Shown here: positions 8,563-32,721 of the stretch, one piece after another
Numbering within the stretch: the first letter of the stretch is position 1
Layout: each line of letters opens with the position of its first letter
Assembly: GCA_023251835.1 (NCBI GenBank)
Contig: JAHEXZ010000052.1
Coordinates: 5,479-38,474, forward strand
Source of the DNA: Bacteroidota bacterium
Lineage (GTDB): Bacteria > Bacteroidota > Bacteroidia > 2-12-FULL-35-15
Direction: 5' to 3'
DNA: 32,996 nt
Notes under the pieces: model-generated
What the model was told of the DNA's origin: nothing
The model's database searches: none
Seen by the model: only the letters and a program-made list of their open reading frames with translations
Position numbers and translations under genes: made by a program

Positions 8563-8838
8563 CTGATGTTACGCAAAATTTATATCTAATTCAGAATATC
8601 TCTATATTTCCACCTGTCATTTCGAACACAGTGAGAAATCTTGTCAATCAATTGCAAAGATTTCTCTTCCTGCTTTCAGCAGGATTCGAAATGACAATGA
8701 TAGTGAGTATGAATTTTTTAAAGCAGTCACTTTTATTGTCTTTTTGAGAAAATTACCCTTCTCTCTTTATCAATTCTCTTGTCCATTATAAGTATAAAAG
8801 TCTATCATTTTTAAATCTTTTTCTTTGCGTAACATGAG
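8563..8838. mobile_element. 276-bp MITE-like element with inverted ends and nested hairpins
   Basis: Left end 8563-8577 (CTGATGTTACGCAAA) and right end 8824-8838 are inverted copies matching at 14 of 15 positions. Inside are three nested inverted repeats: 8615-8626 with 8685-8696 (12 bp perfect), 8633-8642 with 8657-8666 (10 bp perfect), and 8669-8674 with 8678-8683 (CCTGCT/AGCAGG). There is no coding capacity. The left end shares 18 identical bases with the insertion-sequence end at 32844-32861, suggesting mobilisation by that transposase. It fills most of the 334-bp gap between the peptidase start and the gldA stop. Confidence 0.55.
8615..8696. repeat. REP-like palindromic repeat
   Basis: TGTCATTTCGAA at 8615 and TTCGAAATGACA at 8685 are perfect inverted copies enclosing two smaller hairpins. 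The wording (GTCATTTCGAA ... GAGAAATCT) resembles dispersed intergenic palindromes often met in Bacteroidota chromosomes. A shorter relative is present at 22550-22576. Confidence 0.6.
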
Positions 8839-27414: not shown

Positions 27415-30234
27415 ATGCCAAAAGATAATTCCATAAAATCAGTGTTAATAATAGGCAGCGGGCCAATTGTGATAGGACAAGCCTGTGAATTTGATTATTC
27501 AGGATCACAAGCAGCACGTTCATTGAAAGAAGAAGGTATCAGGGTTACGCTGATTAATTCCAACCCTGCAACCATTATGACGGATAAGGTAACGGCTGAA
27601 AATGTTTATTTGTTGCCACTGGAAGTAAAATCTATTGTTAAAATACTGGAAGAAAACCGGCATATTGATGCTGTGTTACCAACTGTAGGCGGCCAAACAG
27701 CTCTTAACCTTGCTATGAAATGCAATGAAATGGGCATTTGGAAGAAATATGGTGTTCGAATGATTGGTGTGGACACAGATGCTATTGAGATTACTGAAGA
27801 TCGTGAAAAGTTCCGTCAATGTATGGAATCAATAGGTATAAATATGGCTCCTTCCAAGATATGCCGTTCTTTCCTTGAAGGCAAAGAGATAACACAGGAA
27901 TTTGGCTTTCCGCTGGTGATTCGACCTTCCTTTACACTTGGTGGCAGCGGAGGTGCCGTAATTTATCAGAAAGAAGATTTTGACAAAGCCTTAGACCGGG
28001 GTTTACATACATCGCCCATACACGAAGTATTGATTGACAAAGCCGTATTGGGCTGGAAAGAATACGAATTAGAGCTATTGCGCGACAGCAATGATAATGT
28101 AGTGATTATCTGCTCCATTGAGAACTTTGACCCTATGGGAGTTCATACAGGCGACAGCATCACCGTTGCACCTGCTATGACACTCTCAGACACAACATTT
28201 CAAAAGATGCGTACCATGGCCATCAAAATGATGCGCAGCATCGGAAATTTTGCGGGTGGCTGTAATGTACAGTTTGCTGTGAGTCCGGATGTAACAGAAG
28301 ATATTATTGCCATTGAGATTAATCCACGCGTATCACGCTCATCTGCTCTTGCAAGCAAAGCAACAGGTTATCCTATCGCAAAAATAGCCGCAAAGCTGGC
28401 GATTGGCTTTAACTTAGATGAGTTAGAGAATCAAATTACCAAATCTACATCTGCTTTTTTTGAGCCTACGCTGGATTATGTGATAGTAAAAATCCCACGC
28501 TGGAACTTTGATAAATTTAAAGGAGCTAACCGTGAACTGGGTTTCCAGATGAAATCAGTAGGAGAAGTAATGGGTATAGGCCGCTGCTTCCAGGAAGCAT
28601 TACAAAAAGCTTGTCAGTCGCTGGAAATAAAGCGTAATGGTTTAGGTGCAGATGGAAGAGAAGTTACCAATCAGGCTGAATTATTAAAAAGCCTTGAACG
28701 ACCAAGCTGGAACCGTTTGTTTCATATTTATGATGCAATAAAATTAGGTATTTCTATTAAAACTATACAAAAACTAACCCGTATCGACCCCTGGTTTTTA
28801 AACCAGATTGAAGAACTGATTTTGCTGGAAGGTGAAATATCAAAATATACATTAGCAGAGCTGCCCCGTGAGTTGTTTTATGAAGCAAAACAGAAAGGAT
28901 ATGCTGATCGCCAGATTGCCCACCTGTTGAGGTGTTTAGAAAGTGAAGTGTTTAAACGCAGACAGGAACTGAATATTAAACGTGTTTATAAATTGGTAGA
29001 CACCTGTGCTGCGGAGTTTGAAGCTAAAACCCCTTATTATTACAGTACGTTTGAGGATGAGAATGAATCCATAGCTTCTGACAAGAAAAAAATTATTGTG
29101 CTGGGTAGCGGGCCAAACCGTATAGGACAAGGTATTGAGTTTGACTATAGCTGTGTACATGGAGTGCTTGCTGCTAAAGAATGCGGTTATGAAACCATCA
29201 TGATTAACTGCAACCCCGAAACAGTTTCTACTGATTTTAATATTGCAGATAAACTCTATTTCGAACCTGTTTTCTGGGAACATATTTATGATATTATACT
29301 AAATGAAAAGCCAGTTGGCGTTATTGTTCAGTTGGGCGGACAAACTGCATTAAAACTGGCAGAAAAGCTGGAACGTTACGGAATAAAAATTATCGGAACA
29401 GATTTCAAATCATTAGATTTAGCGGAAGACAGAGGTAGTTTTTCGCAGCTATTAAAAGATAATAATATTCCCTATCCTAAATTTGCAGTAATTGAAGATG
29501 CAGAACAGGCTGTGGAATTTTCAAAAACATTAGGGTTCCCTCTGTTGGTACGTCCTTCGTATGTATTGGGAGGTCAAAGCATGAAAATTGTTATCAATGA
29601 GTTGGATCTGGAGCAACATACTGTTAACCTGCTGAAAGACCATCCGGGCAACCAGGTGTTGATTGATCATTTTTTAGAAGGCGCAATAGAAGCTGAGGCT
29701 GATGCAATATGTGATGGAACTGATGTTTATATTATAGGTATTATGGAGCATATAGAGCCTGCAGGCATTCACTCCGGTGATTCCTATGCTGTGCTGCCTC
29801 CTTTTGATTTAAGTGAAAATGTAATCAACCAGATTAAACAACATACCAAAACCATTGCATTAGCTTTAAATACTGTTGGTTTGCTGAATATACAGTTCGC
29901 CATTAAAAATGAAGTAGTATATATTATTGAAGCGAATCCACGTGCTTCACGCACAGTTCCGTTCATAGCAAAAGCCTATGATGAGCCCTATGTAAATTAT
30001 GCAACTAAAGTGATGCTGGGCGAGAAAAAGATAAAGGATTTTAATTTTAAACCCCGCAAAATAGGTTATGCGATTAAAATTCCTGTATTCTCCTACAACA
30101 AATTTCCCGAAGTAATTAAAGAGCTTGGCCCTGAAATGAAGTCAACCGGTGAAGCTATTTATTTTATTGATGATTTAACAGATGAGTTTTTTCATACCAT
30201 TTACTCGGAGCGTAATTTGTATTTGAGCAGGTAA
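27415..30234 (+). CDS. carB: carbamoyl-phosphate synthase large subunit, short form
   Basis: This 939-residue enzyme makes carbamoyl phosphate from bicarbonate, ammonia and two ATP for pyrimidine and arginine synthesis. The two homologous ATP-grasp halves are intact: SGPIVIGQACEFDYSG and LGGSGGAVIY in the first, SGPNRIGQGIEFDYS and SYVLGGQSMKIV in the second, with the oligomerisation region between. It ends at MKSTGEAIYFIDDLTDEFF...YLSR, the end of the second synthase half. The C-terminal MGS-like allosteric domain of about 130 residues found in E. coli (1,073 residues) is absent. Its last 106 bases are repeated downstream. No carA is visible. Confidence 0.97.
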   Translation: MPKDNSIKSVLIIGSGPIVIGQACEFDYSGSQAARSLKEEGIRVTLINSNPATIMTDKVTAENVYLLPLEVKSIVKILEENRHIDAVLPTVGGQTALNLAMKCNEMGIWKKYGVRMIGVDTDAIEITEDREKFRQCMESIGINMAPSKICRSFLEGKEITQEFGFPLVIRPSFTLGGSGGAVIYQKEDFDKALDRGLHTSPIHEVLIDKAVLGWKEYELELLRDSNDNVVIICSIENFDPMGVHTGDSITVAPAMTLSDTTFQKMRTMAIKMMRSIGNFAGGCNVQFAVSPDVTEDIIAIEINPRVSRSSALASKATGYPIAKIAAKLAIGFNLDELENQITKSTSAFFEPTLDYVIVKIPRWNFDKFKGANRELGFQMKSVGEVMGIGRCFQEALQKACQSLEIKRNGLGADGREVTNQAELLKSLERPSWNRLFHIYDAIKLGISIKTIQKLTRIDPWFLNQIEELILLEGEISKYTLAELPRELFYEAKQKGYADRQIAHLLRCLESEVFKRRQELNIKRVYKLVDTCAAEFEAKTPYYYSTFEDENESIASDKKKIIVLGSGPNRIGQGIEFDYSCVHGVLAAKECGYETIMINCNPETVSTDFNIADKLYFEPVFWEHIYDIILNEKPVGVIVQLGGQTALKLAEKLERYGIKIIGTDFKSLDLAEDRGSFSQLLKDNNIPYPKFAVIEDAEQAVEFSKTLGFPLLVRPSYVLGGQSMKIVINELDLEQHTVNLLKDHPGNQVLIDHFLEGAIEAEADAICDGTDVYIIGIMEHIEPAGIHSGDSYAVLPPFDLSENVINQIKQHTKTIALALNTVGLLNIQFAIKNEVVYIIEANPRASRTVPFIAKAYDEPYVNYATKVMLGEKKIKDFNFKPRKIGYAIKIPVFSYNKFPEVIKELGPEMKSTGEAIYFIDDLTDEFFHTIYSERNLYLSR
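30129..30234 (+). repeat. carB 3'-end repeat, copy 1 (within carB)
   Basis: These are the final 106 bases of carB including its TAA stop. They are identical without mismatch to 31194-31299, 1,065 bases downstream. The last 35 bases before the final stop-codon base also match 31674-31708. Identity ends exactly at the stop codon on the right. Confidence 0.95.
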
Positions 30235-30243
30235 TTAAACAAA

Positions 30244-30274
30244 TTGCTTTCAACTATTTTTTGATTTATCTTTG
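30244..30274 (+). promoter_or_regulatory. promoter of the MNT-HEPN operon
   Basis: TTG (30244-30246), 20 bases, then TATCTTTG (30267-30274) closely matches the Bacteroidota consensus. The start codon at 30286 is only 11 bases further, so the mRNA would have a very short leader. The promoter lies just after the carB repeat and moves with the cassette. Confidence 0.7.
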
Positions 30275-30285
30275 CTTAACAGATT

Positions 30286-30603
30286 ATGGGCGACAATGCA
30301 ATATTAAAAATAATCAAATCTACGGTAAAATCATTCATACCAGAGGCCAGGGTATTGGTTTTTGGATCCAGGGCAAGAGGAGACTTTAATAAGGATAGTG
30401 ATTTTGATATTCTTATATTAACCGATGAAACTTATCCTGAAAGAGTAAAAATAACCTGGGAAACAACTATCCACAAAGCATTGGTTAAAGTATTACGGCT
30501 TCCTTTTGATGTGGTTATGCAAAGCGAAGAGGAGTTGTCGTACAAAAAGAAAATTCGTGGTCATTATCTGTATAGCGCCATGCAAGAAGCAATTGAACTA
30601 TGA
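30286..30603 (+). CDS. MNT-type minimal nucleotidyltransferase
   Basis: This 105-residue protein is a minimal polymerase-beta-fold nucleotidyltransferase. FGSRARGDFNKDSDFDILIL (about 26-45) carries GSxxRG and the metal-binding pair Asp39 and Asp41. A third acidic residue is Asp75 in LPFDVVM. The active site therefore looks intact. In known MNT-HEPN systems this protein is the antitoxin, which modifies the HEPN toxin with adenylate groups. It overlaps the HEPN gene by four bases (ATGA), starts close to its own promoter, and lies between two identical copies of the carB 3' end. Confidence 0.92.
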   Translation: MGDNAILKIIKSTVKSFIPEARVLVFGSRARGDFNKDSDFDILILTDETYPERVKITWETTIHKALVKVLRLPFDVVMQSEEELSYKKKIRGHYLYSAMQEAIEL

Positions 30604-31001
30604 CCCCGGAAAAAAAGGCTCTTTTAGAAAAGTGGTTACTTATTGCTGACCATGATCTTGAAGTTGCCAGGTATATTATTGAAGGTAATCCTATTGTTCT
30701 TGATGCCGCATGTTTCCACTGCCAGCAAGCCATAGAAAAATATCTAAAAGCATTCCTGACTTATAAAGAAGTAGTATTTCATAAAACTCACGATATAGAA
30801 TTATTGAATGAAGAATGCAACCAACTTGATAGCGATTTCGATTTTTTAGATTATAAAGAATTGAATCAATATGCAGTACGCACAAGGTATCCTGATGGGT
30901 ATGTGATGCCTACTATTCAAGAAACCAAAGAGTATCACAAGATTGCTCTTTCGGTGAAAGAGCTGGTTACTAAGAAGGTCATCTTATCCAAAACTTTATA
31001 G
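30600..31001 (+). CDS. HEPN-domain protein, partner of MNT
   Basis: This 133-residue helical protein is a HEPN domain of the PF05168 type. It has WLLIADHDLEVARYII near 12-27, CFHCQQAIEKYLKAFL at 38-53, THDIELL at 64-70 and the closing RTRYPD at 94-99. Toxic HEPN ribonucleases have an R-x4-6-H motif. No arginine here is followed by histidine at that spacing, so this one may lack RNase activity or use other residues. It is translationally coupled to the MNT gene. The pair could be a toxin-antitoxin module or a non-toxic nucleotidyltransferase pair. Confidence 0.9.
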   Translation: MTPEKKALLEKWLLIADHDLEVARYIIEGNPIVLDAACFHCQQAIEKYLKAFLTYKEVVFHKTHDIELLNEECNQLDSDFDFLDYKELNQYAVRTRYPDGYVMPTIQETKEYHKIALSVKELVTKKVILSKTL

Positions 31002-31325
31002 TTTTTAATGCAAAAGGAAGAACGATGCATTTTGGGTAAGGTCAGGAATTTATACGAAGCGAATAAACCTTATTTGAAATAACTTAAACTGGCTCCAATC
31101 TAATAATTTCCTTTCAAATTCCTACATCAATCACCAAAATATCATCCACCTGTTCTCTGTTAATGTTACACGAATAAAAACACACTTTTGAAACCCTGAA
31201 ATGAAGTCAACCGGTGAAGCTATTTATTTTATTGATGATTTAACAGATGAGTTTTTTCATACCATTTACTCGGAGCGTAATTTGTATTTGAGCAGGTAAA
31301 GAAGGGATTCTTGTTTCTGAAAGGT
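31002..31325. other. intergenic stretch with carB 3'-end copy and remnants
   Basis: This 324-bp gap follows the HEPN gene. Its left part (31002-31193) has no recognisable gene; a short minus-strand frame near 31125-31190 ends ...VDDILVIDVGI and may be a protein remnant, but it is too short to identify. Its right part contains the 106-bp carB copy at 31194-31299 and then the end of the HicB-type gene. No terminator is clear. Confidence 0.6.
31194..31299 (+). repeat. carB 3'-end repeat, copy 2
   Basis: This 106-bp sequence is identical to the last 106 bases of carB (30129-30234), including the TAA stop. It has no start codon or upstream carB sequence, so it is a non-functional duplicate. It separates the MNT-HEPN interval from the HicB interval. 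Confidence 0.95.
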
Positions 31326-31553
31326 TCAGGCAGTGAGGCTCAATGAATATTCCAATGTTGAGCTATCATCAGGGATATCTTCTCCTCTGGATTGCAACTC
31401 TTCAATGTATATCTCAATAGCTTCCTTTGCCATCAAAATGGCATGATCCACATTTTCCCCAAAAGTAATACAGCCAGGGAGGGCGGGAATTGTAGCAGTG
31501 TAACGTCCATCCGCTTCCTTATGCAATAGGATTTTATAAGTCAGTTGTTGCAT
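31326..31553 (-). CDS. HicB-family antitoxin-like protein without a HicA partner
   Basis: This 75-residue protein is a single HicB-type domain. It starts with strands LTYKILLHKEADGRYTATIP and continues with ALPGCITFGENVDHAILMAKEAIEIYIEEL, the family signature (PGC...GE...A...AKEAIE). It is too short for the C-terminal helix-turn-helix or ribbon-helix-helix domain that many HicB proteins add. No HicA-like toxin frame is visible on either side within the interval bounded by the carB copies. It lies on the minus strand, opposite to carB, and is probably either an orphan antitoxin or a solitary regulator. Confidence 0.88.
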   Translation of the reverse strand: MQQLTYKILLHKEADGRYTATIPALPGCITFGENVDHAILMAKEAIEIYIEELQSRGEDIPDDSSTLEYSLSLTA

Positions 31554-31673
31554 TTTTTCTTTGTTTTAATATACTTCGGCTGAAACATCTCTCATCAAAG
31601 ATACGAAACGTTACCTCTCCTTCCTAACCAGACTTTGCTCCTTACCTAAATATCTGCCATAGCTTTTCATGCG

Positions 31674-31709
31674 ATTTACTCGGAGCGTAATTTGTATTTG
31701 AGCAGGTAG
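31674..31709 (+). repeat. carB 3'-end repeat, copy 3 (partial, diverged)
   Basis: The 35 bases 31674-31708 match the last part of carB exactly, and the stop codon is TAG where copies 1 and 2 have TAA. Weaker similarity (TTTTCAT) extends a few bases upstream to about 31664. It lies 25 bases beyond the pdhB stop codon. It looks like an older or independently acquired copy. Confidence 0.85.
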
Positions 31710-31734
31710 ATTTGTGGTGTATGTCTTCGCAATC

Positions 31735-32721
31735 TCATTTAGCCGAAGTATACATCACCTCCTTAACTGCTTTTATTACACGGGCTGTATTAGGTAACGA
31801 AGCATCAATCAATGTTGGAGCATAAGGCAGCGGTACATCTGCCGAAGTTACCCGTAGCACTGGAGCGTCCAGATAGTCGAACGCTTCTTTTTGTACTTTA
31901 AATGCTACTTCAGTAGCAATAGAACCCAATGGCCATGCCTCTTCCACAATAACCAAACGGTTAGTTTTCTTAACCGAATTTATAACGGTTGCGTAGTCAA
32001 TCGGACGTACAGTACGTAAATCAACCACTTCTGCACTTATCCCTTCCTTTTCCAATTCAGTTGCAGCAGTTAATGCCTGTTTAATAATTTTACCAAAAGA
32101 AACAATAGTAACATCTTTACCTTCACGTTTTATATCAGCAACTCCAATAGGTATAAGGTATTCGCCTTCCGGGACTTCGCCTTTATCGCCATACATTTGT
32201 TCACTTTCCATAAATATAACAGGATCATTATCCCTGATGGCTGATTTCAAAAGTCCTTTGGCATCATAGGGATTAGACGGCACAATTACTTTCAATCCGG
32301 GGCAATTGGCATACCAGCTGTCAAATGCCTGTGAATGTTGGGAGCTGAGCATTCCTGCAGAAGCCGTTGGGCCACGAAATACAATAGGAACAGAATATTG
32401 CCCACCACTCATACTCATCATTTTAGCAGCAGAATTAACTACCTGGTCTATAGCAACCAGTGAAAAGTTAAATGTCATAAATTCTACAACAGGCCGTAAT
32501 CCATTCATGGCAGCACCCACAGCAATACCTGAAAAACCAAGTTCTGCAATAGGTGTATCAATAACACGTTTGGCACCAAATTCGGCAAGCATGCCTTTAC
32601 TTACTTTATAAGCGCCATTGTATTCTGCAACTTCTTCACCCATCAATAAAATTTTTTCATCTCTGCGCATCTCCTCATTCATGGCTTCACGAAGTGCTTC
32701 ACGAAATTCAATTGTTCTCAT
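31735..32721 (-). CDS. pdhB: pyruvate dehydrogenase E1 component, beta subunit
   Basis: This 328-residue protein is the beta chain of the heterotetrameric alpha2beta2 E1 enzyme, which decarboxylates pyruvate with thiamine diphosphate and feeds acetyl groups to E2. The start MRTIEFREALREAMNEEMRR and the segment LLMGEEVAEYNGAYKVSKGM contain the conserved cofactor-contact glutamate. TPIAELGFSGIAVGAAMNGL, FRGPTASAGMLSSQHSQAF and the C-terminal transketolase domain (VVIVEEAWPLGSIATEV) follow. No E1 alpha or E2 gene is adjacent, consistent with the split pdhB arrangement seen in Bacteroidota. Its 3' end faces the carB cassette region. Confidence 0.96.
   Translation of the reverse strand: MRTIEFREALREAMNEEMRRDEKILLMGEEVAEYNGAYKVSKGMLAEFGAKRVIDTPIAELGFSGIAVGAAMNGLRPVVEFMTFNFSLVAIDQVVNSAAKMMSMSGGQYSVPIVFRGPTASAGMLSSQHSQAFDSWYANCPGLKVIVPSNPYDAKGLLKSAIRDNDPVIFMESEQMYGDKGEVPEGEYLIPIGVADIKREGKDVTIVSFGKIIKQALTAATELEKEGISAEVVDLRTVRPIDYATVINSVKKTNRLVIVEEAWPLGSIATEVAFKVQKEAFDYLDAPVLRVTSADVPLPYAPTLIDASLPNTARVIKAVKEVMYTSAK

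Follow-up and report, generated by a model that had tools for sequence, protein, structure and literature searches.

Three copies of the carB 3' end

Why should the 3' end of carB, a gene of core metabolism, be found three times in succession, with other genes lodged between the copies? The question is raised by a stretch of Bacteroidota DNA 32,996 nucleotides long, hereafter called the window, whose positions are used throughout; the features concerned are collected in Table 1. The carB 3' end looks like a spot of repeated DNA entry, where the old gene end is pushed downstream; of the two displaced ends, copy 3 is most likely the older.

Table 1. Features of the carB array and its immediate surroundings (window positions)
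Feature	Position	Strand	Basis and remarks
carB, carbamoyl-phosphate synthase large subunit, 939 aa	27415-30234	+	ORF and NCBIfam TIGR01369/NF003671; functional copy
carB 3' end, copy 1 (last 106 bp of carB, TAA)	30129-30234	+	Repeat search
Bacteroidota-type promoter match, TTG-N20-TATCTTTG	30244-30274	+	Consensus match only; begins 10 bp past the carB stop
MNT nucleotidyltransferase, MntA-like antitoxin	30286-30603	+	PF01909, 4.9e-14; GSRARG...DSDFD motif intact
HEPN-domain protein, putative toxin paired with the MNT protein	30600-31001	+	PF05168, 8.9e-22
3'-end fragment NREQVDDILVIDVGI* inside cassette 1	31112-31156	-	Resembles a gene family elsewhere in the genome
carB 3' end, copy 2 (106 bp, 100%, TAA), probably the younger remnant	31194-31299	+	Repeat search
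HicB-like lone antitoxin	31326-31553	-	PF15919, 2.4e-14
183-bp stretch between inverted TATACTTCGGCT motifs that belong to a family of dispersed palindromic repeats	31570-31752		
carB 3' end, copy 3 (45 bp at 31664-31708, 96%, TAG), most likely the oldest remnant	31664-31709	+	Repeat search and base-by-base comparison
Pyruvate dehydrogenase E1-beta-like gene (pdhB-like), convergent neighbour	31735-32721	-	

The repeat search confirmed what a sequence-only reading of this DNA had described, namely three carB ends, the first two identical over their whole length and the third closed by a different stop codon. When compared base by base, all three copies share 35 identical base pairs (ATTTACTCGG...GAGCAGGTA); two substitutions towards the left end of copy 3 (CATACC / CATGCG) and one at the final base of the stop (TAA / TAG) set it apart from copy 1. 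The 20 bp on the 5' side of copy 3 are unrelated to carB, so the fading of similarity at about 31664, with two mismatches near the boundary, proved to be genuine. The carB gene itself is not truncated: the carB genes of genus relatives stop at the same RNLYLS(K/R) position.

A search for the 35-mer, with up to three mismatches allowed, returned four matches in the 4.1-Mb genome, all of them carB ends, while the reversed control returned none. This excludes a chance origin of the copies and leaves standing the tie of the motif to carB, which scattered occurrences would have undone. The suggestion that copy 3 had been carried in from another species was not supported. None of the other genus genomes contained the 35-mer, and it was absent from the approximately 85,000 other genomes searched, a set from which the record of this genome itself may have been omitted. 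The codons AGC AGG, common to the three copies, occurred in none of the carB ends of the other genus genomes, which indicates that copies 1 to 3 all stem from the same or a very close lineage. Nor can the TAG stop be taken for the mark of a foreign lineage, since the two stops are almost evenly spread over the genus (15 TAG and 17 TAA in the 32 other carB genes listed). Among exact repeats lying within 4 kb of each other, no second gene-end repeat of the carB kind was detected in the 0.96 Mb of this genome that was screened in stretches.

Modules between the copies and the pdhB side of the array

The first intervening segment, cassette 1 (30235-31193), holds the MNT and HEPN genes. With adjoining NTP_transf_2 and HEPN genes and the catalytic GSx10DxD motif, the pair is a putative MNT-HEPN (type VII) toxin-antitoxin module; the NCBIfam match of the MNT protein to MntA (1e-8) falls under the MntA cut-off, and it is thus not the MntA equivalog. 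Cassette 1 may be expressed on its own from the putative promoter just past the carB stop. It also contains a second stranded gene end, the minus-strand fragment NREQVDDILVIDVGI*, whose gene family is multicopy in the genus. Cassette 2 (31300-31663) holds the HicB-like gene. A search of the genus for further copies of either cassette yielded only HEPN homologues situated away from carB and the common gene-end fragment; HEPN homologues are sporadic across the phylum.

The 183-bp palindrome-bounded stretch contains copy 3 together with an altered C-terminus of the pdhB-like protein. The alteration falls exactly within this stretch (EVMYTSAK, compared to EVMYVAK in genome G019), which suggests a further rearrangement on the pdhB side, so the native sequence downstream of copy 3 may have been lost. 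The palindromic, REP-like repeat is intergenic; besides this place it occurs at about 30 sites in the 0.96 Mb screened, in the form TATACTTCG(G/A)CTGAATGAGTTTGC...GCAAACTCATTCGCTCAGTATA, often with a second part that ends in AAGATTCAGTATA. It was considered as a mobiliser of copy 3 and set aside, the remaining copies having no such ends. Another intergenic dispersed repeat, elsewhere in the window (8669-8788), shares at least 120 bp exactly with contigs C9, C35, C39 and C40.

Recurrence in other Bacteroidota

A survey was conducted on 112 carB loci, comprising those of the genus and those of 80 other genomes. Downstream copies of the carB end were present in the window, in the sister species G007 and G049, and in Spirosoma utsteinense LMG 31447. 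G007 and G049 carry a plain tandem duplication of about 150 bp, made of the carB end and spacer (L108, 549-769; L112, 505-783). In S. utsteinense, two genes follow carB, one for an RHH-like protein of 71 aa (with a weak match in Pfam) and one for a PIN-domain protein of 143 aa (PF13470, 1.1e-17), and after them comes a 53-bp carB end (94%). A related small protein is encoded in S. spitsbergense, followed by what appears by eye to be a decayed carB end, under the score threshold. At a further locus (L317), a small protein like the RHH-like antitoxin of S. utsteinense is encoded immediately after carB, at 19-327 downstream of it, with no recognisable carB remnant.

A second survey, by pattern search in the family to which G421 belongs (222 genomes; presumably Spirosomaceae, judging from the likeness of the carB ends), brought G556 and G557 to light. 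Multiple matches to the carB end also turned up in G630, G650, G657, G593 and G611. Copies of the carB end were found as well in their relatives G554 and G555, and those of G557, G555 and G554 sit behind differing cargo.

As a control, other gene ends were treated in the same way. At an alignment score of at least 20, a downstream copy was found for 6 of 137 carB ends, part of which were fetched after the first matches, some because they looked promising, and which include related, hence not independent, genomes; the corresponding figure was 5 of 626 for other gene ends. The top-scoring of these five matches were paralogue-like, with similarity reaching far upstream, or did not extend as far as the gene end. 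Comparing 6/137 with 0/626 in a Fisher test gives 3e-5, a value to be taken as a guide only, the five other-gene matches having been set aside by reading. In a limited literature search, we did not find a description of TA and R-M cargo recurring at carB in two or more lineages.

Which copy is the old one

The order of events could be approached in G556, a genome from another genus, where carB is followed by genes for Vsr, an HATPase with weak similarity to Mrr, and a C5-methylase, and then by a 114-bp carB end. This distal end and about 250 bp downstream of it align continuously, over about 360 bp, with the carB end, terminator and small-gene module of the sister species G557, which represents the empty site. 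Since it is followed without a break by the terminator and module found directly behind carB in G557, the distal copy of G556 is, from the alignment, the old native carB end, and a 4.5-kb island with a new terminator separates it from carB. Likewise, the distal copy of G555 keeps the terminator and neighbour gene that it has in common with G557.

Conversely, the last 30 bp or so of the G556 carB gene contain the codons TAT, CTA, CTT and AGT, which are absent from six relatives, and the remnant has the common codons at these places. This points to the carB-proximal end as the newcomer, and going by the codons some 30 bp of carB end most likely arrived with the incoming DNA. The native stretch from about -114 to -31 is present twice in G556; a plain replacement is thus insufficient, and a joining event that duplicates this stretch is needed.

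By analogy with the native distal copy of G556, copy 3 of the window is probably likewise an older remnant, perhaps the original carB end, as the sequence-only reading had supposed. It is also the shortest, the most distal and the most diverged of the copies. No genus member examined has carB beside pdhB, and the window accordingly has no empty-site relative; copies 1 and 2, identical over 106 bp, display no visible boundary between donor and recipient.

A proposed displacement array at carB

Built on the observed repeats, their cargo, their recurrence in other lineages, the polarity in one relative and the variable boundaries, the reading that we favour, and hold to be somewhat better than an even bet, is a 'displacement array' formed sequentially by homology-anchored insertion resembling homology-facilitated illegitimate recombination (HFIR). 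The three in-register carB ends with unrelated cargo in between speak for it, as does the independent recurrence in S. utsteinense. Accessory modules would arrive right behind carB, each accompanied by a carB 3' end of its own. That end would recombine with the resident carB, probably by homologous recombination, leaving carB intact, and the far end of the incoming DNA would presumably be joined by a non-homologous process, at a point lying between a few tens of base pairs and some 100 bp upstream of the old end of carB. This old end would remain downstream as a left-truncated remnant, and repeated rounds would stack the modules with the newest beside carB. In the window, the likely order would be entry of the HicB module, leaving copy 3 behind, followed by entry of the MNT-HEPN module, leaving copy 2.

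Repeat boundaries and rival explanations

The remnants measure 45, 53, 69, 106 and 114 bp, with a degenerate one of about 51 bp in addition, and their left junctions therefore vary. Several copies, those of the window, S. utsteinense, G556 and G557, have their right limit at the stop codon; the repeat ends about 21 bp short of the carB end in one relative, and in another it extends past the stop into the terminator. A fixed core with constant boundaries, as for a site-specific element, was thus not found, and the idea that the 35 bp shared in the window form a recombination core was not supported. The same boundaries weigh against site-specific cassettes, tiny non-autonomous elements for which the carB 3' end would be the attachment site and whose recombinase would act in trans, in an integron-like manner. 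Such cassettes would account for the use of one gene end again and again, the right limit common to several copies, cargo typical of cassettes (TA, R-M) and a newest-first order. However, the left part of the G556 remnant is native-like and not donor-like, the opposite of what an attP arm would predict. No integrase was recognised, by eye, among the ORFs listed up to 3.5 kb downstream of carB at the genus loci, and none is present in the cassettes of the window (only MNT, HEPN and HicB-like genes) or in the Vsr, HATPase and methylase cargo of G556. In the viral, phage and plasmid collections searched, neither carB ends nor DNA matching the array turned up; an Rfam search of positions 29900-31900 gave no match, and a donor sequence was not found. 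We consider site-specific cassettes rather unlikely, and less likely than homology-anchored insertion. The bolder proposal of a dedicated, Bacteroidota-wide entry site at the carB 3' end, serving minimal TA or R-M cassettes that carry a carB tail and depend on a recombinase in trans, is a long shot.

Local tandem duplication of the carB end, with cargo inserted between the copies afterwards, accounts for G007 and G049, with their plain duplications, but not for the remaining cases, and is improbable as an explanation of the array. Neither in the window nor in G556 do the copies have related sequences behind them; in G556, the distal copy has native sequence downstream and the proximal one a new terminator and an atypical end; moreover, two independent steps would be required for each module. 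That the assembly, or a mixture of strains, had placed a single carB end several times is a concern raised by the fragmentation of the genome (171 contigs) and by the fourth 35-mer match, which lies at the end of contig C21, where an IS-type transposase lies directly against copy 2 and the first part of cassette 2, so that some junction is ambiguous. The overlap of C21 with the window is 120 bp long, beyond which the contig enters the DUF772/DDE transposase; this may be a strain variant or an unresolved assembly junction. On the other side, contig ends of this genome repeatedly have exact overlaps of 119-120 bp, which implies an assembly k-mer of about 120, longer than the 106-bp repeat; copy 3 is distinct in sequence; and the pattern is present in further assemblies, including the strain record of S. 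utsteinense LMG 31447. An artefact is therefore highly improbable, and the array is probably real. The transposase gene of C21 (L005, 120-1742) lies within GGG(T/G)CTACTGAAAAA inverted ends, with carB copy 2 on one side and an MBOAT-like gene on the other.

Homology-anchored insertion fits the varying left limits, a right limit situated where the conservation of the gene stops, the newest-first order and the lack of a recognised recombinase.

Comparison with known systems

Small toxin-antitoxin and restriction modules are often scattered over genomes with no visible vehicle; at carB, the remnants record both the order of insertion and the new end. As carB can be aligned across the phylum, it may offer a handy gauge of how frequently defence-like modules enter, from which donors, and by what joining chemistry.

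Integrative elements are known to reside at gene 3' ends, as SGI1 does at trmE. Like these, the carB arrays have direct repeats of a gene 3' end around accessory DNA, with the gene restored; unlike them, the carB loci have no recognised integrase, the length of the repeat varies and the modules are very small. Integron cassette arrays also consist of small modules stacked newest-first, often of the TA type, but the carB arrays involve a single locus with a coding gene end as the repeat, and no integrase was recognised there.

Further parallels are offered by HFIR. In the studies of S. pneumoniae, Acinetobacter and P. stutzeri, as they are cited in PMC5361080 and PMC2884548, incoming DNA is anchored by homology at one end and joined without homology at the other, as proposed here; in contrast to those studies, our case is inferred from sequence only, and G556 requires a duplicated native stretch. 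HFIR has also been proposed for the arrays of orphan immunity genes at V. cholerae T6SS loci (Kirchberger et al. 2017, PMC5361080). There, as at carB, modules enter beside a conserved anchor, and the old modules and 3' gene ends are moved further back. The anchor at carB, however, is the gene of a housekeeping enzyme that stays intact, and the cargo consists of TA, R-M or unassigned small genes instead of effector-immunity pairs. The process is thus known in kind, and carB provides a clean new setting for it at a core metabolic gene.
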